Shown in pieces: positions 10,945 to 57,204 of a DNA stretch of 64,000 nucleotides. A program made the translations under genes and the position numbers. Source of the DNA: Parapristionchus giblindavisi. Taxonomy: Eukaryota; Nematoda; Chromadorea; Rhabditida; Diplogasteridae. The notes under the pieces were generated by a model. It was not told where the DNA came from. It saw only the letters and a program-made list of their open reading frames with translations, and did no database searches. The stretch spans positions 186,001 through 250,000 of the forward strand of contig CALSFV010000363.1 in NCBI GenBank assembly GCA_943737045.1, given 5' to 3'. Every line of letters begins with the position of its first letter. Within the stretch, counting starts at the first letter, position 1.

Positions 10945-11289
10945 CAGTACTGGCCAAAAGGTTATTGACTTTTGGTTTTTTCGTCATAACTTTTTTCAAA
11001 CTCAACCGATCGAGTCCAGCTTTTCAGGGATTATTTTGAGTGCTTTTACGTGTTTTACACAAAAATCACCCTGGTTGAGCACTTATGGTAAAAATTATTT
11101 CGAATTTATCAAAAGTCACAAAAATGAGATTTTCGTTTTGTTCGATTTCTTCGATTTTTTAGACTCATATTGACACCATTGTGTGTTATATTGTTTTAAA
11201 AGCATGATACGGATTCTTGGGAGCAAGAATCTATCAATATCTGAGCCAGAATAAATTCCACATGGACGTCAGATAGGACTGTCCCACGC

Positions 11290-11910
11290 ACACACTGTCA
11301 CAGCAGTTCCTAGTGTCTGTTTCGACTATCCTGAAGGCCATCAAAACTTCAATTCGTGCTCAAACAATGAAGAATGTTAATGTACGACCTCGTAAGACGA
11401 CCACTACATCTGATCGTCTGATTTCCTGCATCTCGAAGGAGAAACTGAGGCTCACTACAATGGACATGAAACGAGCACTAGCGATGTTTCGCTAAATTGA
11501 GGTGCCTGAAGCTTCAAAACTTGCCTGAAAAGATGTTTGTGGTGTCCGTGTACATTGTGCAACTTCGTTTTCGTGCGTCGGGACTATTCGGATGCCAGCA
11601 TATCATAATACCGTGATCAATGAAAAGAATCGCAAAGCATGGACCACATGTGCAAAACAGCACTTGCATTGAACCCCCTAACAATAGAAGTAGGTCGTAT
11701 TCTCAGACGAAAACAAGTTTCTTATGATACGTACGGTGGGAATAAAGCATGTTCGTCGTCAGGTTATCACTAGATAAGATGTGAAGTACGAGCTGTCCTC
11801 CTTGAAGCATGGAGGAGGATCATTAATGTTGTGGGGTTGTTTCTCTGAACATGAGGCTGGCCCCCTGGTTCATTTGAAGAGAATTATGAAGAAGGTTATA
11901 TTATAGAGAC
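11290..11910 (+). pseudogene. Tc1-type transposase pseudogene
   Basis: The N-terminal part reads VSVSTILKAIKT then RPRKTTTTSDRLIS and KLRLTTMDMKRAL. After stops and shifts, the catalytic region SLKHGGGSLMLWGCFS appears at about 11795-11845, followed by EAGPLVHLKR. The rest of the DDE domain is missing, replaced by the inverted 5' copy. It cannot encode an active enzyme. Confidence 0.85.
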
Positions 11911-12318
11911 CCATTTCCATCCTTCAAACATCTTTTCAGGCAAGTTTTGAAGCTTTACGCACCTCACTTTAGCGAAACTCCGCTGGAGCTCGTTTCATGT
12001 CCATTGTAGTGAGTCTCAGTTTCTCCTTCGAGATGCAGGTAATCAGACGATCAGATGTCGTGGTCGTCTTGCAAGCTCGTACATTAAACTTCTTCATTGT
12101 TTGATGACCTTCAGGATAGTCGAAACAGACACTCGGAACTGCTGTGACAGTGTGCGTGGGACAGTCCTATCTGACGTCCATGTGGAATTTATTCTGGCTC
12201 AGATATTGGTAGATTCTTGCTCCCAAGAATCCGTATCATGTTTTTTAAATCGATATGACACACATTGGTATCAAAATGAGTCTAAAAAATCGAAGAAATC
12301 GAACAAAACGAAAATCTC

Positions 12319-12424
12319 AGCACAGGTAGCTTAATGGTAGAGCAATGCCCCGGATAGGCAGAGGTCGTGGGTTCGACTCCCTCCTTGTGCCAATCATTTG
12401 CCAACCTGTATCAAAGAAAATCTC
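12319..12424 (+). mobile_element. Retroposed tRNA (SINE-like) with 9-bp target duplication
   Basis: The Tc1-type arm is continuous in its left counterpart (around 11120). In the right arm it is split by this insert, and GAAAATCTC is repeated at 12310-12318 and 12416-12424. The insert is the tRNA plus about 24 nt ending TATCAAA. An insertion of processed-tRNA-like sequence with a direct repeat indicates RNA-mediated retroposition. Confidence 0.8.
12320..12391 (+). tRNA. tRNA-like cloverleaf inside the retroposon
   Basis: GCACAGG pairs with CTTGTGC (one G-U). D stem GCTT/GAGC, B box GGGTTCGACTCCC. The anticodon stem TGCC/GGCA closes loop CCGGATA, giving anticodon GGA if read conventionally, but position 33 is C instead of the near-invariant U and one T-stem pair is mismatched. 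Probably a tRNA-derived SINE head. Confidence 0.6.
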
Positions 12425-18688: not shown

Positions 18689-20072
18689 TAGGGTTGCCGG
18701 TTCGAATTCGAATTCGAATTATTCGCACCCCTTTCCCATCTCTCACCCTCTCTCCCCTTTCCCTTCAAAGAATTCGACACACCTGCCAGACGGAACGAAT
18801 AGTTCGGGACAGACCGAATTATTCGGTCTCTCTCACTCTCTCGTATCCTTTCTCGACCCTCCCTCCTCTTCCTCCGCCTCGTCCCCCAATGAGATACGTT
18901 TCAAGAGATGGCTAATTCCCCTCGCATCTGAGAGCTTAGCAGTCAGCAGCAAAGTTGTAGCTCACATCATCCCCCTTCTGATTCAATTTTGAAAAAGTCG
19001 ATACGATAACCACGAACAAAATTACATCCGTTCTACGAATTCAGGGAGAAGTTTGAATTATTCACTGTAGCCATGTATCTTACTCTATTACTCCGTCTTA
19101 CTCCACATTGCTTTATCATTCTTTACAGAAGTAATTACACAAAAACAAAAACAAGTAAATGGGAAGAGACAGTCACGAAAAATAATGACGTATAACATAC
19201 ATATAGTAACGTAGCTCAAAGTTTATATTTTGACTTGATTTTTTTTTGCCTGGAACTACGCCAACATCAGCTATCGAATGAGCCTAAACATGGACAGATT
19301 CGGAGAGGATATTCATCACGTAAATATCTGACTGACCTACTCGTGATCAGCTCAAAATCTGGTATAAAATGCCCGCTGAGTTATCATCTGTTACATTTTA
19401 AAATATCGGACTGACATACTCGTGATCAGCACAACATTGTCATAAAATTGTCATAAAATGGCCGCTGAGTTCCCATCTGATACATTTTGAAATATTGTTC
19501 ATTTCAATATTTTGAAATGTTATTGTTCAGATTATACTAGAGTAGATATGCATTTTTTTCGTGACTTTCTCTTCCCATTTACTTGTTTTTGTTTTTGTGT
19601 AATTACTTCTGTAAAGAATGATAAAGCAATGTGGAGTAAGACCGAGTAATGGAATAAGATTCATGGCTACAGTGAATAATTCAAATTTCTCCCTAAATCC
19701 GTAGAACGGATGTCATTTTGTTCGTGGTTATCGTATCGACTTTTTCAAAATTGAATCGGAAGGGGGATGATGTGAGCTACAACTTTGCTGTTGACTGCTA
19801 AGCTCTCAGATGCGAGAGGAATTAGCCATCTCTTGAAACGTGTCTCATTGGGGGACGAGGCGGAGGGAGAGGAGGGAGGGTCGAGAAAGGATACGAGAGA
19901 GTGAGAGAGACCGAATAATTCGGTCTGTCCCGAACTATTCGTTCCGTCTGGCAGGTGTGTCGAATTCTTCGAAGGGAAGGGGAGAGAGGGCCCGTCTCAA
20001 ACGAATTGCCGAGAGAGAAGGGAAGCGACTGACAAGGGGCACGAATTATTCGCCCTCGTTCCTGCAACCCTA
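18689..20072. mobile_element. hAT-type non-autonomous element 1 (1384 bp)
   Basis: Ends TAGGGTTGCC and its mirror, flanked by CTAAGTGG at 18681-18688 and 20073-20080. An exact 8-bp duplication is the hAT signature. The arms pair for about 500 bp. The centre (19210-19560) has two similar segments (about 80 bp) with GACTGACMTACTCGTGATCAG. No transposase is encoded. Confidence 0.9.
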
Positions 20073-25249: not shown

Positions 25250-25952
25250 TAGGGTGGCGAGAATGACTCTTCACTCACCTGTTTTGCCTCCCTCCAACTG
25301 GTGAGCAGTCTCTCTAACTGCTCACTCGTTCCCCCTGGCAGCCGTTCGCTGAGGTCACAAGTGAGTCGAAAAAACAGTTCTTTTTCGATTCACTTGGTTT
25401 TTCTCTGCTCTGAGTGGTCGAAATGTGCAAATGTGAATATTTTTGGAATCTACATGTCAGTGGCTATTCAACATGCATAAAATCGACTGTCAAAGTACAC
25501 TTTTAAATTTCGTTGATTTCTCATGTAATGAATACTATCAATTAGAGAGTCTCTCAGAAGACGATGAAGAAGAGTTTTAATTATAATTCGAGTTTACTGT
25601 ACTAACATAATAAAAATATATGATATTATCATAGTCTGATCCGAATTTATGGCATGCATAACATGACAAATCAACGAAATTTGAAAGTGTACTTTAACAG
25701 TCGATTTTATGCTTGTTGAATAGCTATTGGTGTGTAGATTCCAAAAATATTCAGATGTGCACATTTTGACCACTTTGACTAGAGAAAACCCAAGTGAATC
25801 GAAAAAAGAATTGCTTTTTTCTGCTCACCAGTGTTTTTCTGATCTCATTGCAAGTACTTGACGAGAGAGAGGTCGTAAATGACCTCTCTCGCGAGTACTT
25901 GCACAAGACTGCCAGGGGAACTGGTGAGTGAAGAGTCATTCTCGCCACCCTA
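25250..25952. mobile_element. hAT-type non-autonomous element 3 (703 bp)
   Basis: Ends TAGGGTGGCGAGAATGACTC and its mirror, flanked by ATGTATGG at 25242-25249 and 25953-25960. Inner arms (TTTTTGGAATCTACA, AAATCGACTGT, AAATTTCGTTGATTT) also pair. The ends differ from elements 1 and 2 after the first few bases. It lies about 45 bp upstream of the secreted-protein exon and may affect its promoter. Confidence 0.9.
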
Positions 25953-33499: not shown

Positions 33500-34213
33500 G
33501 AATTTAACCTTCCATACACTGACTTGTGAGTGATAAATCGAGGGAATTATTACCTCTCAAAGTCTCTTTAGTGAATTCGTCCCCCGTACACGGTGGGCCG
33601 AAATGTAATTTCAATTCCGGATCTCGTGAGTAGTATAGTACTGGCTCGATAACATAAAAAACAGCTGTCTATAGGATGTTTTTTTGAGATGTTTTTTGAG
33701 ATGTTTTTTGTTTGTTTTTTAAGTTGTTTTTTGTTTGTTTTTTGAGATGTTTTTTAAGTTGATTTTTTGTTTACATTATCGATTTTTTTGTAGATCAATC
33801 AAAATGATAATAATGATTGACAACTCTTATCAGCCAATCAATAAAATCACTCTAATCAATTACTACAATAATCATCAGTAGTAAACAATAATCAACAGTA
33901 ATAAACAGTAATCAATAATACAGTAATCAATTTGAAAAAATCAATACATTATCGATTTTTTGTAGATCAATGATTCATATTATTGATTATTTGAAGATAA
34001 AAAACAATTGAAATCACAGTAATCAACAAAGACTTACCAGACAGACGCAGCCGCACGGTCGACTAATGAAGCTATAGACTGATCTACCTAGGGGCGGGGC
34101 CTCCTCCCATATATTGAAACTCCTCCCCTTCCCCTTCACTTCGCTCGGGACCGCTCGGAACCACTTTGCTTCTCTATACCCTCTTGCTTTTACATTATCT
34201 CTCTGCCTAATAG

Positions 34214-34216
<3 letters not shown>

Positions 34217-34270
<54 letters not shown>
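34217..34270. repeat. (GA)n tract present in the left arm only
   Basis: About 27 GA units. The mirror position in the right arm (near 48195) has only a few CT units, which contributes to the 177-bp difference in arm length. Confidence 0.95.
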
Positions 34271-34281
<11 letters not shown>

Positions 34282-37200
34282 GACAGAGATATGGATACCA
34301 AGAGAGTGAGTGAGAGAGAGAGGATTTCAAGAGAGTGAGAGAGAGAGAGAGAGAGGATATCCATTACACGTCTGCTTGATTATGAAGAATGTGCAATATG
34401 ACCCTACACCTGACACCTCTAGATAGCTAGAAAGAGACAGATATACCGTAATCTCCAATCACTCCAGTTACCAGTCATAACGAATTGAATACAGTATAGT
34501 ATATAATATTTATATACTGAAGCTAAAGGGTGAATGATGGAGAGATAGGTGCCAAGATAAACGAAGGCCCGGATTAAAGAGGTTAAAGTCTTTCCCGCTC
34601 ATCGGTATTGAGAGATATAAACACTCAAACCAGACAACTTGCGAGGCCGTGATTATATGGGTACAGCAAGAGTCATTTCGTAAAAATGAAGAAGGGATTG
34701 TGGCAGTACTCTTTTATCCAGAAGATGATTAATTACTCTCATCCATCTCTTCCTACTCACTAATTCTACAATCCTTTCTCATACTCTAATTCAATCACAA
34801 CAACAACAACAACAGATATAAATATAGGCTTACGAATGATTAAATACAAGTTGACAAGGTAATCATTACATCAAGATAGCACATGTAATACAACCTTCTC
34901 TCTCTCAGTAAAACCACTCTCATGATATATCTCATCTTTATTATCAGAGCATATGTCGAACATAGATTTATTAAAGGAAACAATTAACACCCCCTCATTC
35001 TACTGAATGGCAAGAGTCATTTCGTAATATGAGGAAGAGATTTAGACTGTACACAAATGATTACTTACCCTTATACCACTATTCCTTCTTAGTAGTTCCA
35101 TTCCCATAATCAATCACAACAACAAAAAAAAGAGATATTAATTTATGTTTATGAATGATTAAAGACAAGTTGATCGAGACAAGTTGATCATCACATTAAA
35201 ACAACGCATAAAATAAAACCACTCTCATGAAATATCTCATCATCATTAGCAGTGCATATAACACACATACATATATTTTAAAGTCATCAATGCAAGATGA
35301 TCGAGACAAGGTTACATCAAGACATGAAATACCTTCTCTCAGCAAAACCACCCTCATGATATATCTCATGTTCTCTAGCAGGGCAAATGTCGACCACAAA
35401 TTTATTAAAGGAAAGAATGAATTTATTAAAGGAAAGAATTAGGCGGGTATTAAGAGTATACGTTGTTTACTATAGCTGTTACAATATCTCATTCTAATGA
35501 ATTCTCTTCATCTATTTCTTAGATCACCCTGACAATTAACAACCAAAGAGATATGACATTCACTTTCTGTGAACGCATTCATAATGAAGAAAAAACACCT
35601 AGCAGATAAATACTAAGATAAACCTAATGAAACCATGATTTAGCTAGTGATTACTTAATTAGGTTATTCCAACTGAAATTAGTAGAGATGAGGTATGCTA
35701 AACAAAAAGGAAAGCTAAGACGAGACCCTTCGTTTCTATCTCTGCCGAAAGGAATAAAGGAGAGGGAGACGCTACTATAAAAACCACATAATGAGTAGAG
35801 ATTTTCAAATGTTACAAATGAAATATGTGAATTGCATAACTAATATTTTAAGAGAGGTTTTTAGTCTCTCTCACTCATCAGTAGTGAGGGATATAAATAC
35901 TCAAACCAGACAACCTGCCAGACCGTGAATATATGGGCGGATGGTATGTCAAGAGTCATTTCGTAATATGAGGAAGAGATTTAGACTGTTCACAAAACGA
36001 TTACTTACCCTTATACCACTATCCCTTCTTAGTAGTTACATTCCCATATTCAGTCACAACAACGACAAGAGATATAAATATAGGCTTATCAACGATTAAA
36101 GGCAAGTTGGTCGAGAAAAGTTAATCATCCCATTAAAACAACACATAAAATAAAAACCACTCTCATGAAATATCTCATCATCATTAGCAGTATATCACAC
36201 ATACATATATTTTTAAAATCAACAATGACAATCGACTGATTACAACCTACGGTGATCAGCATTGCTATTACAATACACTAATCTAATCAATTCTCTACTT
36301 ACTACACTATCATGACAATAGCAGTCAGAGAGATACAGCAGCCAAATCATTTATTCACTTTCTTTGATGACACACATAATAAACAAATCCATTAAATATA
36401 AACTGCGACAACCATAGTAAAACCTTAATCTAACTAGTGATTACGTAACTAGGATATTCCAACTGAAATTAGTAGATATAAAGTATAATATAAATACTCA
36501 AACCAGACAGCTCTCCAAAAAGCGTAATGCCATATATCGTGGTTGAGAAAGAGAAGCGGAAAAGCAGAGAGGGTCATAAAACCAATGAAAGAGACAAAAA
36601 AAAATAAACGTGTAAATCATTAATTCATAGAAAGAGCACATCTCTACAGTGATTCATTCCTTTTTAGTAACTAAATCAGACCATCATTCTATGAACATGG
36701 AAATCTAGAAACATCAACTCAACTGGAGCACCGATAATGCAAATGTATGAAAAGTTATATTATTGATATAGAGGTGAAATTAACGGTTTATGAGTGAAGA
36801 CACATCTCCAATTAGTATGACCATACAAAAAAATACAGTCCACTATTATTACTCCGAATTCACACAGACGCTACTCAACACTAACTAATAAAGAAAATGT
36901 TTTGATGAATAGTGCATTGCATACGAATTATATATTGATTTGATCAAGCTACTGAAATTAAAAGAGACAAATCTCAATGCAAATGCGCGGAAGATATTAC
37001 GGGAAAAGATTACACGAAGGAATATAACAGGAATATTACAACCATACAAGTGTCATATCCTTACTTTCAAAGTTCGACCCTATCCAGCGCTACTTCTCGG
37101 TTGAATCGACGAGTGGCCAATTCACATTCTCCTCAAAATGTTCCAACAAAAAATCATATTTTTACTAGAGTACATTTGCATGCTTTTTATATACTGTACT

Positions 37201-38164
37201 TCACGTTGAATTATCGTTCCTTTCTTTATTCATAGGGTCAGAGATCGACCTCGAATCATCGCCTTGGGACTTTATTTATTCATACAGAGCGAATTCAGCC
37301 CGGATCAAATAAAGGTGGCGGTAAATAAGAAGTGAGAGAGATAAACCCCTCAACAATACTAAAAATCTAGAAAGCAACCACTAATGATGCATTTGTGCGT
37401 TAGAAACAATACATATTGGAAATCTTAATAGTAGACATACGCTAAGATAGTTATTTATTTGTATAATAGTACTAACGCTGTGACACACAACTATGTTTCT
37501 GTTCATTTCACTGGATTTGCATGGGATATCACTAAAGGTGAATAACTAAAGAATGTAGATCTTGCAGTACACACCCTATCGATATTGGATGATCGGTGGT
37601 GGTTGATATGCTGGGTTTATACACTTTCCATTATGTAAATACACTTATATGAAACATAGTCCAAACCTGTTGTCCCGTTTGTTTTTTCTATTATTTTGAG
37701 ATGTGCTCTGATGAAATACATGTTTAATACATGTATATGGCACACTGTCTATAGGTGAAATCATGGTCTTCTATAGTGTTTTCGTTGTCAAAGTCTTTTC
37801 AGGTAACGAACGTCCAAACCTCACTTATTGATATAGTGTACATAGCTATTCTAACTAGAATGGTCAGAACCCCTTATTTATATAACGATGTTTCTTGATG
37901 ATGAACACTAGGCGTATTTACATTTTTACGATATCTAAAGTTGATTGAACATCGTAATAATACATATAAACACCATCTCTGCCTCTTTATCTATATCGTA
38001 ACATCGCATTTATGCGGACTGAACTAATCATGCACTGCACTATACTAATCATATTTTAGCGGCAGATACACTCTACTTTTCCACAACATAAAGTGTGTTT
38101 TTATTATTGTTTCGTATGCAGTAATAAACGGGCAAAAATCATTCTACATATCGTGCACTATTTC

Positions 38165-38470
38165 TCGCTCTCTCGCCTACTCCATCAACAGAAAAGGATC
38201 AACAGACGAATCCCCTCCTAGAAGGATTTGGAATGCCTGGAGGTGTACTTCCAACTGTCAAGCAGGCCTAATGGACGATAGCGGAACGTTTTCGTGGGTT
38301 TTCTACTCCAATCAACAAGTTTTAGTTCGATCGTTTTCTTGAATGGAGAATAACATCTCTCAGAGACGGAAGAATAAGAACTTGCAAGAAAATTCCCCCT
38401 GCCCCTGACTTACTCTTCTGCACTTAGTGCTGATAAGATAAATGTATTGTATTGTATCGTGCACTATTTC
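38165..38470 (+). mobile_element. Retroposon copy in the left arm, 15-bp target duplication
   Basis: ATCGTGCACTATTTC is repeated at 38150-38164 and 38456-38470. The insert ends GATAAGATAAATG then TATTG repeats, a non-LTR-style tail. Broken coding traces precede it. The same insertion is at 44097-44402 in the right arm. Confidence 0.8.
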
Positions 38471-40069
38471 ATTCAAGTTATTGTCCGCTAGAATCATGAA
38501 TGAATAACACTGAATGTTAATTTCTATAACCGGTAAAAAGCACGATTTTGAATGGTAAAGATATCGAAAATATAAGTGGGAACCCTCCCGGTACGGTATT
38601 TTCTACTTACTGAGCTACACTGATACCTCTCGAATCTAGTAGTAGTAAACAGAAATCAACATTGTTGGACTCACATATTACACCAAATCAGCCTTTAATA
38701 CTTCATTACCACGAGTAACTTTCACAATGTAGGACATCTTAACTGTTTCAATCAACACAAACAATCATGACAAATCTTTATAATTATTTGATCACATAGT
38801 GAATTTATGTAATATAGTATAATCATGAGTCATTTAATTGTCGAACTATGTACTAATTTATGTAGTCAAACATTGCAATATAGAACCATGGTATATCGCG
38901 TATATCACGCAAGAGTGTACAGAACAGCTCAACTCTGCGTAATCATATTATTAAATGCATATCATTACATGATCAAACATGACATTAACGCGATCATACA
39001 TGAAAATACCAAAATCCTAATTAAGTTTGCATTTATCCATGGTAATTCAAGCATCTATGTCAGTTCTAAATGATTTATCGAACAATATGTAGATAGATTC
39101 GCTTTGCAGGGAGTTATATCTCAATGTAATGTGTTACAAATTTATGTTATACTTGGAGGATCATGAGGTATTTACTCGAACAACTATGTTGTCCCATTAA
39201 TAATTCAAACAATATGCTTTTCTATTATAAGAAATGGCCCAAAATATGGATTTATAGTAGTATTGGTCACTTGAAAATCGTCATGTTGTAAATTCCGGGT
39301 ACAACCAACCAGTTTCCGATATACTATACTATTAACTTGAACAGGACCTTCCAACAGACTACCTAGAACCTCACAACCGCATAGCTTAATCATCACAACT
39401 TCAGCTGATTTTGAGAAAATGAGACACTATTGATACCGTTAATTTATGGTAGAAAGTGAGAAAGGCTTCCCGTTTTCTATATTACACAACACCAATCTGC
39501 TTACAAAAGAAATCTACAATCGTTTACTCCAACACCGGATAGCCAGAGAAGAATTTCAAGAACAGGTTCTTCAAGAATACAAAAATATACCAGCCATATT
39601 AGTGATTTCTACGCTAGCAACACATCCCAGTAGATAACTGACTACATATTCAAAAGCTGCATGAGTAGTGATATTACAGAAATGGATTCTTTATGTATGG
39701 CTAAGTTTGTCAAACTTTTGAATAATCCATAATATAACCATGAATTAATAAACAAAATAGAATTACAGGTATATAATTGATTATGTAGTGCAGCTTTACA
39801 TTACACACTAATGAACACCTTTCAATCCTATCAATAGTTGCCTTATTTATTGATGAGGAGAGAAATATCCACAAATCTTACATTTATTCGATCAATAGGT
39901 TGATATATCATTAACCGGTGATATGAAACACCAATGAAACTATTACCATATACCAATTACATCTAAATATTGTCTATGATGTTTATTCAAAATGATCAGT
40001 ATGCAACAAGCTCAATGAAGACACATAGATGTATGGTCTATTAACAAATCTTCAATTAAAATCTAAATA

Positions 40070-40930
40070 TTATATTTTATCTGCTATGCATTCAGACGTA
40101 AAGATATGTCAAAATCTTTCAAGGTACACATAATAACCAATACATAACCATGACATAACCAAACATAACATAACCATGACTTAACCAAACATAACATAAC
40201 CATGACATAACCAAACATAGCATAACCATAACCATAACATGACATTGATTACTGTATTCTATTTTATCTGCTATGCACTCACACGTAAAGATATGTCAAA
40301 ATCTTTCAAGGTACGCATGATAACCACTACATAACCATGACATAACCAAACATAGCATACCCATAACCACTACATAATCACGACATAACTAAGCCTAAGC
40401 CTAAGCATGTATTATATTTTATCTGCTATGCACTCACACGTAAAGATATGCCAAATTCTTTCAAGGTATACATGATAACCAATACATAATCATGACATAA
40501 CCAAACATAACATAACCATGACATAACCAATCATAACATAACCATCACATAACCAAACATAGTATAACCATAACCATAACATGACATTGATTACTGTATT
40601 CTATTTTATCTACCATGCACTCACACGTAAAGATATGCCAAAATCTTTCAAGGTACGCATGATAACCACTACATAATCATGACATAACTAAGCCTAAGCC
40701 TAAGCCTGTATTCTATTCTATCTACTATGCACTCAGACGTAAAGATATGCCAAAATCTTTCAAGGTACGCATGATAACCACTACATAATCATGACATAAC
40801 TAAGCCTAAGCCTGAGATGTCGTTCATTTTGATTTATCTGCAAAAATCGATAATGCCGTAAATATTGCTCTTTCAACTGCATGGTTTTAATAAGTTCATT
40901 ACTGCACTTATCCTAAGCCTAAGCCTAAGC
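40070..40930. repeat. Repeat block with interstitial telomere-type tracts, left arm
   Basis: Five copies of a unit with CTATGCACTCACACGTAAAG and TCTTTCAAGGTACGCATG (anchors near 40091, 40271, 40431, 40618, 40731), separated by ATAACCATGACATAACC runs. Tracts of two to three CCTAAG units (complement of nematode TTAGGC) occur at about 40390, 40690, 40801 and 40915. The mirror block is 41637-42497. Confidence 0.85.
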
Positions 40931-41129
40931 AGGGGCGTATGAAGCGATTCCGAGCGAAGCGAAGGATGTTTTTTTGCGGTGGTTTCTTCTTTTGTTGCTT
41001 CTTCTTCCTAGATTGCCCCTTATCATCATTTGGTTTAAAAATCGTTACTTACAAGTAACCTCAACCTTTATCTTATTTACAGAAACTGTAAACTGACACA
41101 AAAAACTGTTTACTCTAAACTCATTAGCG

Positions 41130-41221
41130 TTAAACATCTGAACTATTTTTACCCTCCGCTCTGGCATACTCTCTCGCAGACAAAGAAAGAGAGAGAGAGT
41201 GGTCAGTGCGGGGAGTTTCAA
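41130..41221. mobile_element. MITE family A at the inner end of the left arm
   Basis: TTAA at 41130-41133, CCTCCGCTCTGGCATACTC core and GTGCGGGGAGTTTCAA. The mirror copy is 41346-41437. The arm-spacer boundary falls inside this element's right arm. Confidence 0.8.
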
Positions 41222-41345
41222 GTTAGACTTATGCTAAAGTCAATCCATCTCTTTATTTCACACACTGTTTCTTCGTTTTCTGATCACGAGAGAGAGTTGG
41301 AGGTTGATAAGTTCACTCATAAATGCTTTTTCGCTCTTAAATGAT
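41222..41345. other. Palindrome spacer (124 bp)
   Basis: The only non-mirrored sequence at the centre. It contains CATCTCTTTATTTCACACAC, TTCTGATCACGAGAGAG and a TTAA near its right edge, which look like a diverged family B MITE. The centre of the palindrome is thus A, B and mirrored A. Confidence 0.7.
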
Positions 41346-41636
41346 TTGAAACTCCCCGCACTGACCACTCTCTCTCTCTTTCTTTGTCTGCGAGAGAGTA
41401 TGCCAGAGCGGAGGGTAAAAATAGTTCAGATGTTTAACGCTAATGAGTTTAGAGTAAACAGTTTTTTGTGTCAGTTTACAGTTTCTGTAAATAAGATAAA
41501 GGTTGAGGTTACTTGTAAGTAACGATTTTTAAACCAAATGATGATAAGGGGCAATCTAGGAAGAAGAAGCAACAAAAGAAGAAACCACCGCAAAAAAACA
41601 TCCTTCGCTTCGCTCGGAATCGCTTCATACGCCCCT

Positions 41637-42497
41637 GCTTAGGCTTAGGCTTAGGATAAGTGCAGTAATGAACTTATTAAAACCATGCAGTTGAAAGAGC
41701 AATATTTACGGCATTATCGATTTTTGCAGATAAATCAAAATGAACGACATCTCAGGCTTAGGCTTAGTTATGTCATGATTATGTAGTGGTTATCATGCGT
41801 ACCTTGAAAGATTTTGGCATATCTTTACGTCTGAGTGCATAGTAGATAGAATAGAATACAGGCTTAGGCTTAGGCTTAGTTATGTCATGATTATGTAGTG
41901 GTTATCATGCGTACCTTGAAAGATTTTGGCATATCTTTACGTGTGAGTGCATGGTAGATAAAATAGAATACAGTAATCAATGTCATGTTATGGTTATGGT
42001 TATGCTATGTTTGGTTATGTGATGGTTATGTTATGATTGGTTATGTCATGGTTATGTTATGTTTGGTTATGTCATGATTATGTATTGGTTATCATGTATA
42101 CCTTGAAAGAATTTGGCATATCTTTACGTGTGAGTGCATAGCAGATAAAATATAATACATGCTTAGGCTTAGGCTTAGTTATGTCGTGATTATGTAGTGG
42201 TTATGGGTATGCTATGTTTGGTTATGTCATGGTTATGTAGTGGTTATCATGCGTACCTTGAAAGATTTTGACATATCTTTACGTGTGAGTGCATAGCAGA
42301 TAAAATAGAATACAGTAATCAATGTCATGTTATGGTTATGGTTATGCTATGTTTGGTTATGTCATGGTTATGTTATGTTTGGTTAAGTCATGGTTATGTT
42401 ATGTTTGGTTATGTCATGGTTATGTATTGGTTATTATGTGTACCTTGAAAGATTTTGACATATCTTTACGTCTGAATGCATAGCAGATAAAATATAA
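41637..42497. repeat. Repeat block with telomere-type tracts, right arm
   Basis: Mirror of 40070-40930. Reads GCTTAGGCTTAGGCTTAGG at about 41638 and again near 41860 and 42160. Confidence 0.85.
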
Positions 42498-44096
42498 TAT
42501 TTAGATTTTAATTGAAGATTTGTTAATAGACCATACATCTATGTGTCTTCATTGAGCTTGTTGCATACTGATCATTTTGAATAAACATCATAGACAATAT
42601 TTAGATGTAATTGGTATATGGTAATAGTTTCATTGGTGTTTCATATCACCGGTTAATGATATATCAACCTATTGATCGAATAAATGTAAGATTTGTGGAT
42701 ATTTCTCTCCTCATCAATAAATAAGGCAACTATTGATAGGATTGAAAGGTGTTCATTAGTGTGTAATGTAAAGCTGCACTACATAATCAATTATATACCT
42801 GTAATTCTATTTTGTTTATTAATTCATGGTTATATTATGGATTATTCAAAAGTTTGACAAACTTAGCCATACATAAAGAATCCATTTCTGTAATATCACT
42901 ACTCATGCAGCTTTTGAATATGTAGTCAGTTATCTACTGGGATGTGTTGCTAGCGTAGAAATCACTAATATGGCTGGTATATTTTTGTATTCTTGAAGAA
43001 CCTGTTCTTGAAATTCTTCTCTGGCTATCCGGTGTTGGAGTAAACGATTGTAGATTTCTTTTGTAAGCAGATTGGTGTTGTGTAATATAGAAAACGGGAA
43101 GCCTTTCTCACTTTCTACCATAAATTAACGGTATCAATAGTGTCTCATTTTCTCAAAATCAGCTGAAGTTGTGATGATTAAGCTATGCGGTTGTGAGGTT
43201 CTAGGTAGTCTGTTGGAAGGTCCTGTTCAAGTTAATAGTATAGTATATCGGAAACTGGTTGGTTGTACCCGGAATTTACAACATGACGATTTTCAAGTGA
43301 CCAATACTACTATAAATCCATATTTTGGGCCATTTCTTATAATAGAAAAGCATATTGTTTGAATTATTAATGGGACAACATAGTTGTTCGAGTAAATACC
43401 TCATGATCCTCCAAGTATAACATAAATTTGTAACACATTACATTGAGATATAACTCCCTGCAAAGCGAATCTATCTACATATTGTTCGATAAATCATTTA
43501 GAACTGACATAGATGCTTGAATTACCATGGATAAATGCAAACTTAATTAGGATTTTGGTATTTTCATGTATGATCGCGTTAATGTCATGTTTGATCATGT
43601 AATGATATGCATTTAATAATATGATTACGCAGAGTTGAGCTGTTCTGTACACTCTTGCGTGATATACGCGATATACCATGGTTCTATATTGCAATGTTTG
43701 ACTACATAAATTAGTACATAGTTCGACAATTAAATGACTCATGATTATACTATATTACATAAATTCACTATGTGATCAAATAATTATAAAGATTTGTCAT
43801 GATTGTTTGTGTTGATTGAAACAGTTAAGATGTCCTACATTGTGAAAGTTACTCGTGGTAATGAAGTATTAAAGGCTGATTTGGTGTAATATGTGAGTCC
43901 AACAATGTTGATTTCTGTTTACTACTACTAGATTCGAGAGGTATCAGTGTAGCTCAGTAAGTAGAAAATACCGTACCGGGAGGGTTCCCACTTATATTTT
44001 CGATATCTTTACCATTCAAAATCGTGCTTTTTACCGGTTATAGAAATTAACATTCAGTGTTATTCATTCATGATTCTAGCGGACAATAACTTGAAT

Positions 44097-44402
44097 GAAA
44101 TAGTGCACGATACAATACAATACATTTATCTTATCAGCACTAAGTGCAGAAGAGTAAGTCAGGGGCAGGGGGAATTTTCTTGCAAGTTCTTATTCTTCCG
44201 TCTCTGAGAGATGTTATTCTCCATTCAAGAAAACGATCGAACTAAAACTTGTTGATTGGAGTAGAAAACCCACGAAAACGTTCCGCTATCGTCCATTAGG
44301 CCTGCTTGACAGTTGGAAGTACACCTCCAGGCATTCCAAATCCTTCTAGGAGGGGATTCGTCTGTTGATCCTTTTCTGTTGATGGAGTAGGCGAGAGAGC
44401 GA
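44097..44402 (-). mobile_element. Retroposon copy in the right arm
   Basis: Mirror image of 38165-38470 including its target duplication, so it was inherited through the arm duplication and not inserted independently. Confidence 0.8.
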
Positions 44403-47400
44403 GAAATAGTGCACGATATGTAGAATGATTTTTGCCCGTTTATTACTGCATACGAAACAATAATAAAAACACACTTTATGTTGTGGAAAAGTAGAGTGTA
44501 TCTGCCGCTAAAATATGATTAGTATAGTGCAGTGCATGATTAGTTCAGTCCGCATAAATGCGATGTTACGATATAGATAAAGAGGCAGAGATGGTGTTTA
44601 TATGTATTATTACGATGTTCAATCAACTTTAGATATCGTAAAAATGTAAATACGCCTAGTGTTCATCATCAAGAAACATCGTTATATAAATAAGGGGTTC
44701 TGACCATTCTAGTTAGAATAGCTATGTACACTATATCAATAAGTGAGGTTTGGACGTTCGTTACCTGAAAAGACTTTGACAACGAAAACACTATAGAAGA
44801 CCATGATTTCACCTATAGACAGTGTGCCATATACATGTATTAAACATGTATTTCATCAGAGCACATCTCAAAATAATAGAAAAAACAAACGGGACAACAG
44901 GTTTGGACTATGTTTCATATAAGTGTATTTACATAATGGAAAGTGTATAAACCCAGCATATCAACCACCACCGATCATCCAATATCGATAGGGTGTGTAC
45001 TGCAAGATCTACATTCTTTAGTTATTCACCTTTAGTGATATCCCATGCAAATCCAGTGAAATGAACAGAAACATAGTTGTGTGTCACAGCGTTAGTACTA
45101 TTATACAAATAAATAACTATCTTAGCGTATGTCTACTATTAAGATTTCCAATATGTATTGTTTCTAACGCACAAATGCATCATTAGTGGTTGCTTTCTAG
45201 ATTTTTAGTATTGTTGAGGGGTTTATCTCTCTCACTTCTGATTTACCGCCACCTTTATTTGATCCGGGCTGAATTCGCTCTGTATGAATAAATAAAGTCC
45301 CAAGGCGATGATTCGAGGTCGATCTCTGACCCTATGAATAAAGAAAGGAACGATAATTCAACGTGAAGTACAGTATATAAAAAGCATGCAAATGTACTCT
45401 AGTAAAAATATGATTTTTTGTTGGAACATTTTGAGGAGAATGTGAATTGGCCACTCGTCGATTCAACCGAGAAGTAGCGCTGGATAGGGTCGAACTTTGA
45501 AAGTAAGGATATGACACTTGTATGGTTGTAATATTCCTGTTATATTCCTTCGTGTAATCTTTTCCCGTAATATCTTCCGCGCATTTGCATTGAGATTTGT
45601 CTCTTTTAATTTCAGTAGCTTGATCAAATCAATATATAATTCGTATGCAATGCACTATTCATCAAAACATTTTCTTTATTAGTTAGTGTTGAGTAGCGTC
45701 TGTGTGAATTCGGAGTAATAATAGTGGACTGTATTTTTTTGTATGGTCATACTAATTGGAGATGTGTCTTCACTCATAAACCGTTAATTTCACCTCTATA
45801 TCAATAATATAACTTTTCATACATTTGCATTATCGGTGCTCCAGTTGAGTTGATGTTTCTAGATTTCCATGTTCATAGAATGATGGTCTGATTTAGTTAC
45901 TAAAAAGGAATGAATCACTGTAGAGATGTGCTCTTTCTATGAATTAATGATTTACACGTTTATTTTTTTTGTCTCTTTCATTGGTTTTATGACCCTCTCT
46001 GCTTTTCCGCTTCTCTTTCTCAACCACGATATATGGCATTACGCTTTTTGGAGAGCTGTCTGGTTTGAGTATTTATATTATACTTTATATCTACTAATTT
46101 CAGTTGGAATATCCTAGTTACGTAATCACTAGTTAGATTAAGGTTTTACTATGGTTGTCGCAGTTTATATTTAATGGATTTGTTTATTATGTGTGTCATC
46201 AAAGAAAGTGAATAAATGATTTGGCTGCTGTATCTCTCTGACTGCTATTGTCATGATAGTGTAGTAAGTAGAGAATTGATTAGATTAGTGTATTGTAATA
46301 GCAATGCTGATCACCGTAGGTTGTAATCAGTCGATTGTCATTGTTGATTTTAAAAATATATGTATGTGTGATATACTGCTAATGATGATGAGATATTTCA
46401 TGAGAGTGGTTTTTATTTTATGTGTTGTTTTAATGGGATGATTAACTTTTCTCGACCAACTTGCCTTTAATCGTTGATAAGCCTATATTTATATCTCTTG
46501 TCGTTGTTGTGACTGAATATGGGAATGTAACTACTAAGAAGGAATAGTGGTTTAAGGGTAAGTAATCATTTTGTGTACAGTCTAAATCTCTTCCTCATAT
46601 TACGAAATGACTCTTGACATACCATCCGCCCATATATTCACGGTCTGGCAGGTTGTCTGGTTTGAGTATTTATATCCCTCACTACTGATGAGTGAGAGAG
46701 ACTAAAAACCTCTCTTAAAATATTAGTTATGCAATTCACATATTTCATTTGTAACATTTGAAAATCTCTACTCATTATGTGGTTTTTATAGTAGCGTCTC
46801 CCTCTCCTTTATTCCTTTCGGCAGAGATAGAAACGAAGGGTCTCGTCTTAGCTTTCCTTTTTGTTTAGCATACCTCATCTCTACTAATTTCAGTTGGAAT
46901 AACCTAATTAAGTAATCACTAGCTAAATCATGGTTTCATTAGGTTTATCTTAGTATTTATCTGCTAGGTGTTTTTTCTTCATTATGAATGCGTTCACAGA
47001 AAGTGAATGTCATATCTCTTTGGTTGTTAATTGTCAGGGTGATCTAAGAAATAGATGAAGAGAATTCATTAGAATGAGATATTGTAACAGCTATAGTAAA
47101 CAACGTATACTCTTAATACCCGCCTAATTCTTTCCTTTAATAAATTCATTCTTTCCTTTAATAAATTTGTGGTCGACATTTGCCCTGCTAGAGAACATGA
47201 GATATATCATGAGGGTGGTTTTGCTGAGAGAAGGTATTTCATGTCTTGATGTAACCTTGTCTCGATCATCTTGCATTGATGACTTTAAAATATATGTATG
47301 TGTGTTATATGCACTGCTAATGATGATGAGATATTTCATGAGAGTGGTTTTATTTTATGCGTTGTTTTAATCTGATGATCAACTTGTCTCGATCAACTTG

Positions 47401-48762
47401 TCGTTAATAATTCATAAACCTAAATAAATATCTCTTATTTTTGTTGTGATTGATTATGGGAATGGAACTAGTGCTAGAACTAGAACTAGTGAGTAGGAAG
47501 TATAGGGATAAGGGTAATTAATCATTTTATGCATAGAAGTGTACAGTCTAAATCGCTTCCACATATTACGAAATGACTCTTACCATTCAGTAGAATGAGG
47601 GGGGTGTTAATTGTTTACTTTAATAAATCTATGTTCGACATATACTCAGATAATGAAGATGAGCTATATCATGAGAGTGGTTTTACTGAGAGAGAAGGTT
47701 GTATTTCATGGGTTATCTTGATGTAATGATTACCTTGTCAACTTGTATTTAATCTTTCGTAAGCCTATATTTATATCTGTTGTTGTTGTTGTTGTTGTGA
47801 TTGAATTAGAGTATGAGAAAGGATTGTAGAATTAGTGAGTAGGAAGAGATGGATGATAGTAATTAATCATATTCTGGATAAAAGAGTACTGCCACAATCC
47901 CTTCTTCATTTTACGAAATGACTCTTGCTGTACCCATATAATCACGGCCTCGCAAGTTGTCTGGTTTGAGTGTTTATATCTCTCAATACCGATGAGCGGG
48001 AAAGACATTAACCTTTTTAATCCGGGCCTTCGTTTATCTTGGTACCTCTCCGTACCTCTTGACACCTATCTCTCTCTCTCTATCATTCACCCTTTAGCTT
48101 CAGTATATATTATATACTATAATGTATACAATTCGTTATGACTGGTAACTGGAGTGATTGCACTATAAGCTATCTGGGAAGTATTGTTGGTTCTCTCTCT
48201 CTTTTCTATTAGGCAGAGAGATAATGTAAAAGCAAGAGGGTATAGAGAAGCAGAGTGGGCGGAGTTTCGATGTGTGGGAGGAGGCCCCGCCCCTAGGTAG
48301 ATCAGTCTATAGCTTCATTAGTCGACCGTGCGGCTGCGTCTGTCTGGTAAGTCTTTGATGATTACTGTAATGATGATTTCAATTGTTTTTTGATCTTCAA
48401 ATGATCGATAATATGAATCATTGATCTACAAAAAATCGATAATGTGATGATTTTTCAAATTGATTACTGTACTTGTTTATTACTGTATTATTGAATACTG
48501 CACTTGTTTATTACTGTTGATTATTGTAGTAATTGATTAGAGTGATTTTATTGATTGGCTGATAAGAGTTGTCAATCATTATTATCATTTTGATTGATCT
48601 ACAAAAAATCGATAATGTAAACAAAAAATCAACTTAAAAAACATCTCAAAAACAAACAAAAAACAACTTAAAAAACAAACAAAAAACATCTCAAAAAACA
48701 TCTCAAAAAAACATCCTATAGACAGCTGTTTTTTATGTTATCGAGCCAGTACTATACTACTC

Positions 48763-49276
48763 TCGTGTTTTCATTAATCATATCATGAAACTCCGGTTTT
48801 GAAAAAGAGAAGTCGTAATGAGATTCCCGGAACCGCTTGGAATTAGTTATATCCTTATAGTGATCCCTTATAATGGATGAATACCATAAAAAGACGCTGG
48901 TTATGAATTTTGAGTATTTAATCGATGACTATTAAGATATCAGCATACCAATCGCTGTTCTTCCCTGCATTTCTCTATTATAAACATAATCGGATGAAGA
49001 TGATTGGGACAAGGAAACAGACCAATCAAGAAGTTCATGCCACTGACAATTACTTCAAGATAATCGCCGATGCATGGAATTAAAGAACAATATTAGGCGC
49101 TTTAAATAATTCGCTTTTCTCAATGAAGCATTCAATGTATATATCACTATAGAAATCATGATTTGTCCACTGAAGCTTCCGTTCTTTGTATTACCATATG
49201 TAAGTATACATCCACGGAAGAAAATTGTTGATAATTGTTGGATTGGATGAGCGATTGTATATTCAATAAACGCTAA
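48763..49276. other. No recognised gene (right flank of palindrome)
   Basis: Immediately outside the palindrome. A short frame at about 48797-48844 ends with a TAW-type tail, vaguely like the chemoreceptor B C-terminus (STWA). This is too weak to call as a displaced exon of chemoreceptor A. Confidence 0.35.
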
Positions 49277-54983: not shown

Positions 54984-55845
54984 ATCTGAATTGTGACACT
55001 ATAGGCAGTGGGAATTAAATTTTCATTGATCGCTGGAATCATTAATGAATAATCCTTCATACGAAAGGCGCGAATTTTGAAAATTGAAAAGTTAGGCTAT
55101 AGGTTCTAAACCATTGATGTTGCTCTAACTACACCGAAGGAAAATTCTCTTAGAGTTAGGCTTTCTAACTGGACTACCACAGATAAAGGCTAGCTTACTC
55201 TAAACAATCTCAAAATACACGTTGGATAACATTATCAAACTCGAGATAGTGCCTAAAAACCATTGCCGCACATCACTGGTATTCACTATATTTATCCTTT
55301 CTTTATCCCAGATTTCATCTTGCAAATGTTTTATTCTAAGCTCATTTTGTCGCAGTAACATCCAGAGCCGTCACATTCCCTCCTCCTCCTCCCATTAACT
55401 CCACCTACTGCATAATTCCCGATGCTTTCTCACTATTTTCTCTTTCCTCCGTCTTCCATAGAGTTGGAATACTAAATTCCGGAACGTCCAGTCCCTAGTA
55501 TTTCTCTGTTTCTAAAAAAACTTTATTACATCAACAATTTGATATATGAACATTGTTTTCAATAAAACGCGAATACCAATGATGATTCTTTTCAGTTGTA
55601 TGTTGTATACAGTCATTTATTAAGTGATAAATAAGGAAAAATATTAAAATGAACCGTATACTTTATGTCATTCTTCTTAATTTTACGTATGGAACAAAGA
55701 ATAAGAATAAGAATAAGCATAATTGCATTTTATTGTATTTTCCCAATTGTAAATGTATTGATAGAGAATGAGAGAGGAGTTCACCAATCACTCGCTTTTC
55801 ATTTCTGTTTGCCATAGCCTTCACTGTCTAATCCGATTCTCGCTC
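54984..55845. other. No recognised gene
   Basis: AT-rich sequence with no splice-bounded coding frame that could be supported. Confidence 0.5.
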
Positions 55846-56277
55846 ACTTCTGTACCTCTTCTCTCCCTCTACCTCTTCTTCTCTCCCTCTACCTCTCCTT
55901 CTCTCCCTCTACCTCTCCCTCTGCCTCTTCTTCTCTCCCTCTGCCTCTTCTTCTCTCCCTCTACCTCTTCTTCTCTACCTCTCCTTCTCTCCCTCTACCT
56001 CTCCTTCTCTCCCTCTACCTCTCCCTCTGCCTCTTCTTCTCTCCCTCTGCCTCTTCTTCTCTCCCTCTACCTCTTCTTCTCTACCTCTCCTTCTCTCCCT
56101 CTACCTCTCCTTCTCTCCCTCTACCTCTCACTCTTCCTCTTCTTCTCTCTCTCTGCCTCTTCTTCTCTCCCTTTACCTCTTCTTCTCTCCTCTACCTCTT
56201 CTTCTCTCCTCCACCTCTTCTTCTCTACCTCTTCTTCTCTCCCTCTTACTCTCTCCCTCTCCTTCCGTCATTCCCAT
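55846..56277. repeat. CT-rich minisatellite
   Basis: Irregular array of CTCTACCTCTCCTTCTCTCC-like units. A roughly 117-bp block (CTCCCTCTGCCTCTTCTTCT and neighbours) occurs twice. The 171-codon frame across it is low complexity and is not a gene. Confidence 0.95.
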
Positions 56278-57005: not shown

Positions 57006-57204
57006 GGGAGAGGGAGAGGGAGAGGGAGAGGGAGAGGGAGAGGGAGAGGGAGAGGGAGAGGGAGAGGGAGAGGGAGAGGGAGAGGGAGAGGGAGAGGGAG
57101 AGGGAGAGGGAGAGGGAGAGGGAGAGGGAGAGGAAGAGGGAGAGGGAGAGGGAGAGGGAGAGGGAGAGGGAGAGGGAGAGGGAGAGGGAGAGGGAGAGGG
57201 AGAA
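57006..57204. repeat. (GGGAGA)n repeat, about 33 units
   Basis: About 200 bp of nearly perfect hexamer with one A substitution. One strand is pure purine. The Gly-Glu, Gly-Arg and Ser-Leu frames here are artefacts. Confidence 0.98.

Follow-up and report, generated by a model that had tools for sequence, protein, structure and literature searches.

We analysed a 64,000-nucleotide stretch of DNA from the nematode Parapristionchus giblindavisi (contig CALSFV010000363.1, positions 186,001 to 250,000; hereafter the window) that contains a palindrome of about 15 kb. This palindrome is very probably a non-autonomous Polinton/Maverick without evident genes, a satellite of coding Polintons that reside in the same genome. 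The argument comes from sequence comparison: the palindromes share their ends with coding elements and have 6-bp target-site duplications (TSDs), and coding elements with the same ends are present in the genome, which together mark the palindromes as non-autonomous Polintons of Polinton length.

Self-comparison and base-level alignment, with the boundary at AGTAGT, place the exact bounds of the window palindrome (the C363 copy) at 33629-48761 and bear out the two arms and the 124-bp spacer at 41222-41345 reported in the first-pass annotation of the window. Its features, and those of the site that it occupies, are as follows:

33592..33628, no strand: left piece of the ~113-bp dispersed target repeat, found at 38 other places at 88-93%
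33623..33628, no strand: left TSD, CTCGTG, 6 bp, from the edge sequence and the target repeat without insert
33629..33638, plus strand: terminal motif AGTAGTATAG, the first 8 bases of which are common to the elements with edges read
33629..41221, plus strand: left arm of the palindrome, beginning AGTAGTATAG, with no open reading frame beyond chance
40393..40933, plus strand: GCCTAA stretch of three short runs, mirrored in the right arm
41222..41345, no strand: central loop, 124 bp, asymmetric, present in 17 of 20 TSD-verified palindromes, C363 included
41346..48761, minus strand: right arm, the mirror of the left by self-comparison and base-level alignment
47372..48761 (approximate), minus strand: outer right arm, unlike the left arm in C363 by comparison with other copies
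48762..48767, no strand: right TSD, CTCGTG, 6 bp, from the edge sequence and the target repeat without insert
48768..48843, no strand: right piece of the ~113-bp dispersed target repeat, from the joined-flank genome search

The palindrome had been described as near-perfect, and alignment of the arms along their length, a check that the first-pass annotation had proposed, shows how far this holds. Over the inner 80% of the arm (6.1 kb, about 35.1-41.2 kb) the two arms are ~99.9% identical and almost indel-free, whereas in the outer 1.5 kb they are ~5-7% different and carry several indels of up to 131 bp. Tandem subrepeats are present in the arms. The GCCTAA motif, the nematode telomere repeat unit, forms runs that start at window positions 40393, 40692 and 40917 and at the mirror positions; other palindrome copies have up to 5 units, and C281 is without any run of two or more.

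The window palindrome inserted into its present site, duplicating 6 bp of the target. As a query for the genome we used 200 bp of either flank, fused around a single CTCGTG (best 40 of 59 candidates). Own two flanks aside, the other 38 of the 40 places listed align unbroken across the joined junction (approximately query positions 164-276, with indels of a few bases at most, at 88-93%), and since the target repeat is unbroken elsewhere, C363 sits in a dispersed repeat that exists at other places without the element. Exact 6-bp TSDs, all different from one another, were found at 20 of the 22 palindromes with both edges read, and the ends of 20 of these 22 begin with AGTAGTAT; the TSD counts leave out C93, C13, C205, C114, C561, C673, C12, C56, C682 and others. 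A 4-bp duplication, TCGT, had been considered for the window copy and was replaced by CTCGTG after several copies set the boundary.

At least 20 giant palindromes with Polinton-type ends are present in the genome. Searches with the arm sequence, likewise proposed in the first-pass annotation, returned diverged palindrome copies at many other places (best 40 of 396 and best 28 of 2712 candidates, so that all counts are lower bounds); the matches were mostly inverted pairs, with no clear single-arm progenitor among the matches listed. When the genome was searched with AGTAGTATAGKWCHR, 77 matches were obtained as against 28 with a reversed control pattern. Eighteen inverted pairs of this motif are spaced 13.1-24.1 kb and two 32-33 kb (C114 and C12), while three are short: 2.2 kb in C326, and nearly abutting in C223 and C8. 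Lengths of the 20 TSD-verified palindromes run from 13.1 to 24.1 kb, and all but two fall within 13.1-18.5 kb. That elements with no evident genes are this long, and short pairs few, suggests that palindrome length may be held by a requirement such as packaging in helper capsids.

The centre of the palindrome is conserved in most copies. A 181-bp query made of the loop plus its edges gave 21 other full-length matches, 18 of them at 91-100% and three (C655a, C211 and C150) at 79-84%, together with partial matches at C383 and C1 (98%) and at C203 (74%); weak partial matches at C273, C320 and C257 correspond to no known palindromes. The presence of the loop in 17 of 20 palindromes points to one old ancestral palindrome for most copies.

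Coding Polintons were found with a profile of the protein-primed polymerase (PF03175), which gave 15 matches in this genome and none in any of 14 control genomes. DNA_pol_B_2 is above cut-off in three elements (C312, C583 and C66; lengths, in ascending order, 17.2, 17.7 and 18.0 kb), and in all three it lies between inverted AGTAGTATAG ends with exact 6-bp TSDs. C312 also has an rve integrase core domain (37.4 bits, cut-off 32.6); searches of its proteins against PDB and PHROGs gave no match. A 285-aa frame at 2144-2998 of the C312 locus has, by eye, a signal-peptide-like stretch near its start and no Pfam family above cut-off; it is possibly a captured membrane protein. Elsewhere, at C384:94463-96397, protein-primed polymerase matches fall in a 1207-aa frame (one of the three pieces running through a stop). 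This frame is longer than those of C312, C583 and C66 and may belong to another Polinton lineage or to a plasmid.

The ends of these coding elements recur on the palindromes. Polinton termini begin with AG. We searched the genome with the first 1000 bp of C312 (best 40 of 129 candidates): this segment is 100% identical to the two ends of palindrome C226, and identity is 82-94% at a further 16 loci that contain family sequence, where the match mostly spans positions 82-1000. Thirteen of these loci match at both ends (C3, C237, C212, C29, C80, C203, C28, C383, C397, C655b, C114, C110 and C150); for the other three (C561, C93 and C673) one end is listed. The left arm of C226 tracks the left end of C312 to element position 1253, at 99.7% past the first kilobase, beyond which it has the sequence of the palindrome family; over 2 kb at this C312-like end the arms of C226 agree at 99.95%. 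Since the two ends of C312 itself differ (87-96% alike) and both ends of C226 match its left one, C226 carries one coding-element end twice. Other palindromes resemble other coding elements: at the left end, C80 is identical to coding C583 over the first 60 bp, and C212 and coding C66 differ by 1 base. Adjoining palindrome C226 is a tandem of ends, two 349-bp pieces (C226:304541-304889 and 306202-306550) that are 100% identical to the C312 end and spaced 1661 bp.

The palindromes have ends of the same kind as the coding elements and no evident genes of their own. The longest stop-to-stop frame in the C363 left arm is 118 aa, where 100 simulated sequences gave a mean longest frame of 100 aa and a 95th percentile of 124. 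Substitutions between palindrome copies show no codon periodicity or third-position bias, and the two C363 arm frames searched had no Pfam match. On these three grounds we rejected hidden coding in the window arm; the statement in the first-pass annotation that the arms hold no transposon gene agrees with this. By the same frame lengths and Pfam searches, the window palindrome does not encode a retroviral-type integrase, and none of the 15 PF03175 matches lies inside a palindrome. Because the palindromes are without the protein-primed polymerase B that their coding relatives have, they qualify only as non-autonomous Polinton members.

Several observations weigh against this assignment. The link is least direct for the window copy itself: it matches the C312 end over 40 bp at 87.5% and over ~400 bp at 77%, it is not among the best 40 of 129 C312-end matches, and it is connected to C312 through the terminal motif, the TSD and other palindromes, so that the long terminal inverted repeats that palindromes have in common with coding members are, in its case, a short and diverged shared stretch. 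In the coding elements the polymerase matches are short pieces, the FtsK-type ATPase and double jelly-roll (capsid) matches of C312 are weak and below cut-off, and in C583 and C66 the polymerase alone was looked at. Among six copies examined, two have one frame each above the 95th percentile of chance, 209 aa in C281 and 186 aa in C203. C281, C226 and C28 had no loop match among the matches listed. Two palindromes are longer than the rest, C397 (21.2 kb) and C211 (24.1 kb); C397 has ~5 kb extra between matching blocks on one side relative to the other, and a later insertion probably makes up some of its length, while C211 has extra length on both sides. Finally, two palindromes are without a clean TSD: in C203 the mirror symmetry extends ~150 bp past the terminal motif, and C110 has an identical flank, inverted, on both sides. 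The C110 flank (palindrome at C110:147282-163448) is also found in C397, in C114 and in a tandem array on C72. As a separate matter, the centre frame of C281 had a mariner-like look; it gave a weak HTH_5 match below cut-off, and this candidate was rejected.

Three other origins for the palindrome had been raised, and the insertion evidence bears on each. A fold-back inversion is ruled out because the element has a 6-bp TSD, the target repeats run without interruption elsewhere and the family is dispersed. An assembly artefact, in which fold-back reads were joined as palindromes, draws some support from C203 and C110: the former by its symmetry past the terminal motif and the latter by its inverted flanks, which mean that C110 may be mis-assembled at the palindrome and that some contigs may be mis-joined at such places. 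As the source of the palindromes it is nevertheless very unlikely, to the point of being negligible, in view of the exact TSDs at 20 of 22 copies, the asymmetric loops, the arm-specific differences and indels, the target repeats without insert and the dispersed family. The closest of the three was a giant foldback element: the window does hold a mobile element of two arms, but its Polinton/Maverick-type ends had been missed. Foldback elements (Tm1, FB, Galileo and Tc4) resemble the palindromes in their long inverted arms and in having little or no coding in many copies, and long inverted arms that hold tandem subrepeats but no evident genes would fit an FB/Mutator- or Tc4-like foldback transposon moved by a transposase of its own. 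FB and Tc4 elements are far smaller than these palindromes, however, the FB/Mutator type has 9-bp TSDs where we find 6 bp, and the palindromes have their ends in common with polymerase-bearing Polintons. The Tm1 elements of root-knot nematodes also have 9-bp duplications (PMC3169594), unlike the 6-bp TSDs and Polinton ends described here. We consider a foldback transposon very improbable.

To see how the arms stay alike we compared seven copies in full (C363, C36, C37, C655a, C231, C281 and C203). Within a copy the aligned part of the arms is 97.6-100% identical, while copies are 84.0-92.6% identical to each other over an aligned 3.3-7.9 kb, with the exception of two close pairs (the near-twins C363 and C36 at 97.5-99.7%, and C281 and C203 at 93.6-94.1%). 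As copies stand ~10% apart while their own arms agree, the arms have been kept alike beyond one insertion's lifetime. Private substitutions, counted at columns in which four or more copies are represented, tell the same way, the ratio of both-arm to one-arm changes being 40:6 in C655a, 52:4 in C37, 57:2 in C231, 353:12 in C281 and 404:146 in C203; the low both-arm counts of C36 (1:2) and C363 (0:22) are as expected of near-twins. A tree built from one 1-kb block groups a copy's own arms together for six of the seven, the arms of C363 not separating from C36. The arms of a copy thus evolve in concert, rewritten from each other. The explanation offered in the first-pass annotation, that the arms are very young or kept alike by gene conversion, is thus half right: they are kept alike, either by conversion in the chromosome or by rewriting during replication. 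Divergence between copies is also patchy: between C363 and C231 each 400 bp holds 1-6 differences at arm depths of ~2.0-4.8 kb and 25-33 once past 5.2 kb (a 1264-bp gap being left out of the comparison), which suggests exchange between elements that may then have been copied to both arms.

The mechanism that we favour renews the arms in a hairpin while a helper replicates the element. The integrase and protein-primed polymerase of a helper Polinton would recognise the shared ends and mobilise the palindrome in trans, as the ends and the TSD suggest. Strand displacement would free a single strand, and a palindromic strand could fold into one full-length hairpin, in which mismatch correction or recopying would renew arm identity each cycle; a helper end exchanged onto one arm could in this way be copied to the other. 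Element length would stay near the 17-18 kb of the helper, perhaps through packaging in helper capsids, and after integration the arms would gain one-sided changes, as in C363. We give the hairpin step an even chance. Packaging in helper capsids, as of a satellite or defective genome, is a tentative proposal, suggested by the length agreement and somewhat less likely than not. The full picture, a long-lived, gene-free, capsid-length satellite lineage of an animal polintovirus, with a genome that is one giant hairpin, replicated and packaged by the helper, its arms rewritten each cycle and fresh helper ends copied to both of them, is possible but in our judgement has distinctly less than an even chance of being right.

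Two rivals concern the hairpin step and the arms. The same non-autonomous Polinton might have its arms kept identical on the chromosome by arm-to-arm gene conversion of the kind known from Y-chromosome palindromes, which would replace the hairpin step and leave the identity of the element as it is. Private changes are mostly in both arms, and five of the seven copies have 2-12 one-arm changes, as expected at a balance of conversion and mutation; this steady level of one-arm differences also fits chromosomal conversion and counts against the hairpin step. C363 argues the other way. Its outer left arm nearly equals that of C36 and its outer right arm for the most part lies nearer to C37, C655a and C231; the outer 1.5 kb contains 65 one-arm sites, and six more lie immediately inward of it. 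Inside the outer tract, comparison of C363 with C36 gives 2 both-arm and 16 one-arm differences, small numbers that include those six sites at the tract edge; four one-arm sites cluster in ~34 bp, and the innermost site may be an alignment edge effect. One-sided tracts of this kind would not outlast rapid in-place conversion, which favours rewriting of the arms during replication or transposition, though the numbers are small and a slow in-place process is possible. Overall, chromosomal conversion appears somewhat unlikely. Alternatively, each palindrome could have been re-formed by fold-back replication from a single-arm progenitor, giving identical arms with no homogenisation at all. This would explain arms that are alike within and different between copies as well as the same coding-element end on both sides of C226, and the three palindromes lacking a loop match among the matches listed (C281, C226 and C28) could have re-formed. 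It is improbable, since the same asymmetric loop and junctions are central in 17 of 20 palindromes and would need a repeated, identical fold-back point, and since the best 40 of 396 and 28 of 2712 matches are mostly inverted pairs with no clear single-arm progenitor.

The palindromes can be set beside known systems. Miniature inverted-repeat transposable elements (MITEs) are short, under about 1 kb, and the palindromes, at 13.1-24.1 kb, fall outside this size. Mammalian Y-chromosome palindromes have near-identical long arms that evolve in concert, are immobile, have no TSD and carry genes; the window palindrome has concerted arms too, but is mobile, TSD-flanked and without evident genes. The palindromic defective genomes of adenoviruses likewise consist of protein-primed linear DNA in which one viral end occupies both sides. 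They arise as by-products when the virus grows, whereas the palindromes here are an inherited, dispersed family; no paper on these defective genomes was found in the literature searched. Polintons/Mavericks as a class have 6-bp TSDs and long inverted ends (PMC8969392) and a length of 15-20 kb (PMC8969392, PMC4046053). Within that description the palindromes resemble them in the 6-bp TSD (20 of 22 palindromes and three of three coding elements), in long inverted ends, in a length in or near this range and in ends common with coding copies of the same genome. They differ in having no evident genes, in an inverted repeat that takes up nearly the whole element, in homogenised arms and in having mostly one central loop. 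Titles and abstract openings of the literature searched, a partial coverage with subscription papers mostly outside it, contained no palindromic or foldback Polintons, and the phrase "non-autonomous polinton" had no match there. The element class is known; what appears to be new is its form as a giant palindrome in which the arms evolve in concert, the loop is mostly conserved and the ends match those of helpers.

The remainder of the window adds little to this. The palindrome had been placed between chemoreceptor paralogues, for which support is weak: one of three left-flank frames matches 7TM_GPCR_Sra, below cut-off, and three right-flank frames gave no match at all. Smaller inverted repeats, 79-96% identical, lie at 18746-19990, 11125-12319 and 25361-25828 and are possibly unrelated short transposons. 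Microsatellite-like tandem repeats at 55843-56263 and 57006-57203 give long simple-repeat frames that by appearance are not genes.

Polintons are regarded as both transposons and viruses, with predicted capsids (PMC4028283). Polinton replication in animals is largely inferred, and the palindromes offer a direct readout of the DNA that the Polinton machinery needs: dispersed natural derivatives keep the ends, the length and mostly the loop, but no evident genes. Palindromes of 15 kb are normally unstable, and this family shows how one of that size can be passed on and multiply. Should the hairpin reading be right, the differences between the arms would serve as a clock for the time elapsed from the latest round of replication, and other assemblies may contain palindromes of this kind in broken or collapsed form.

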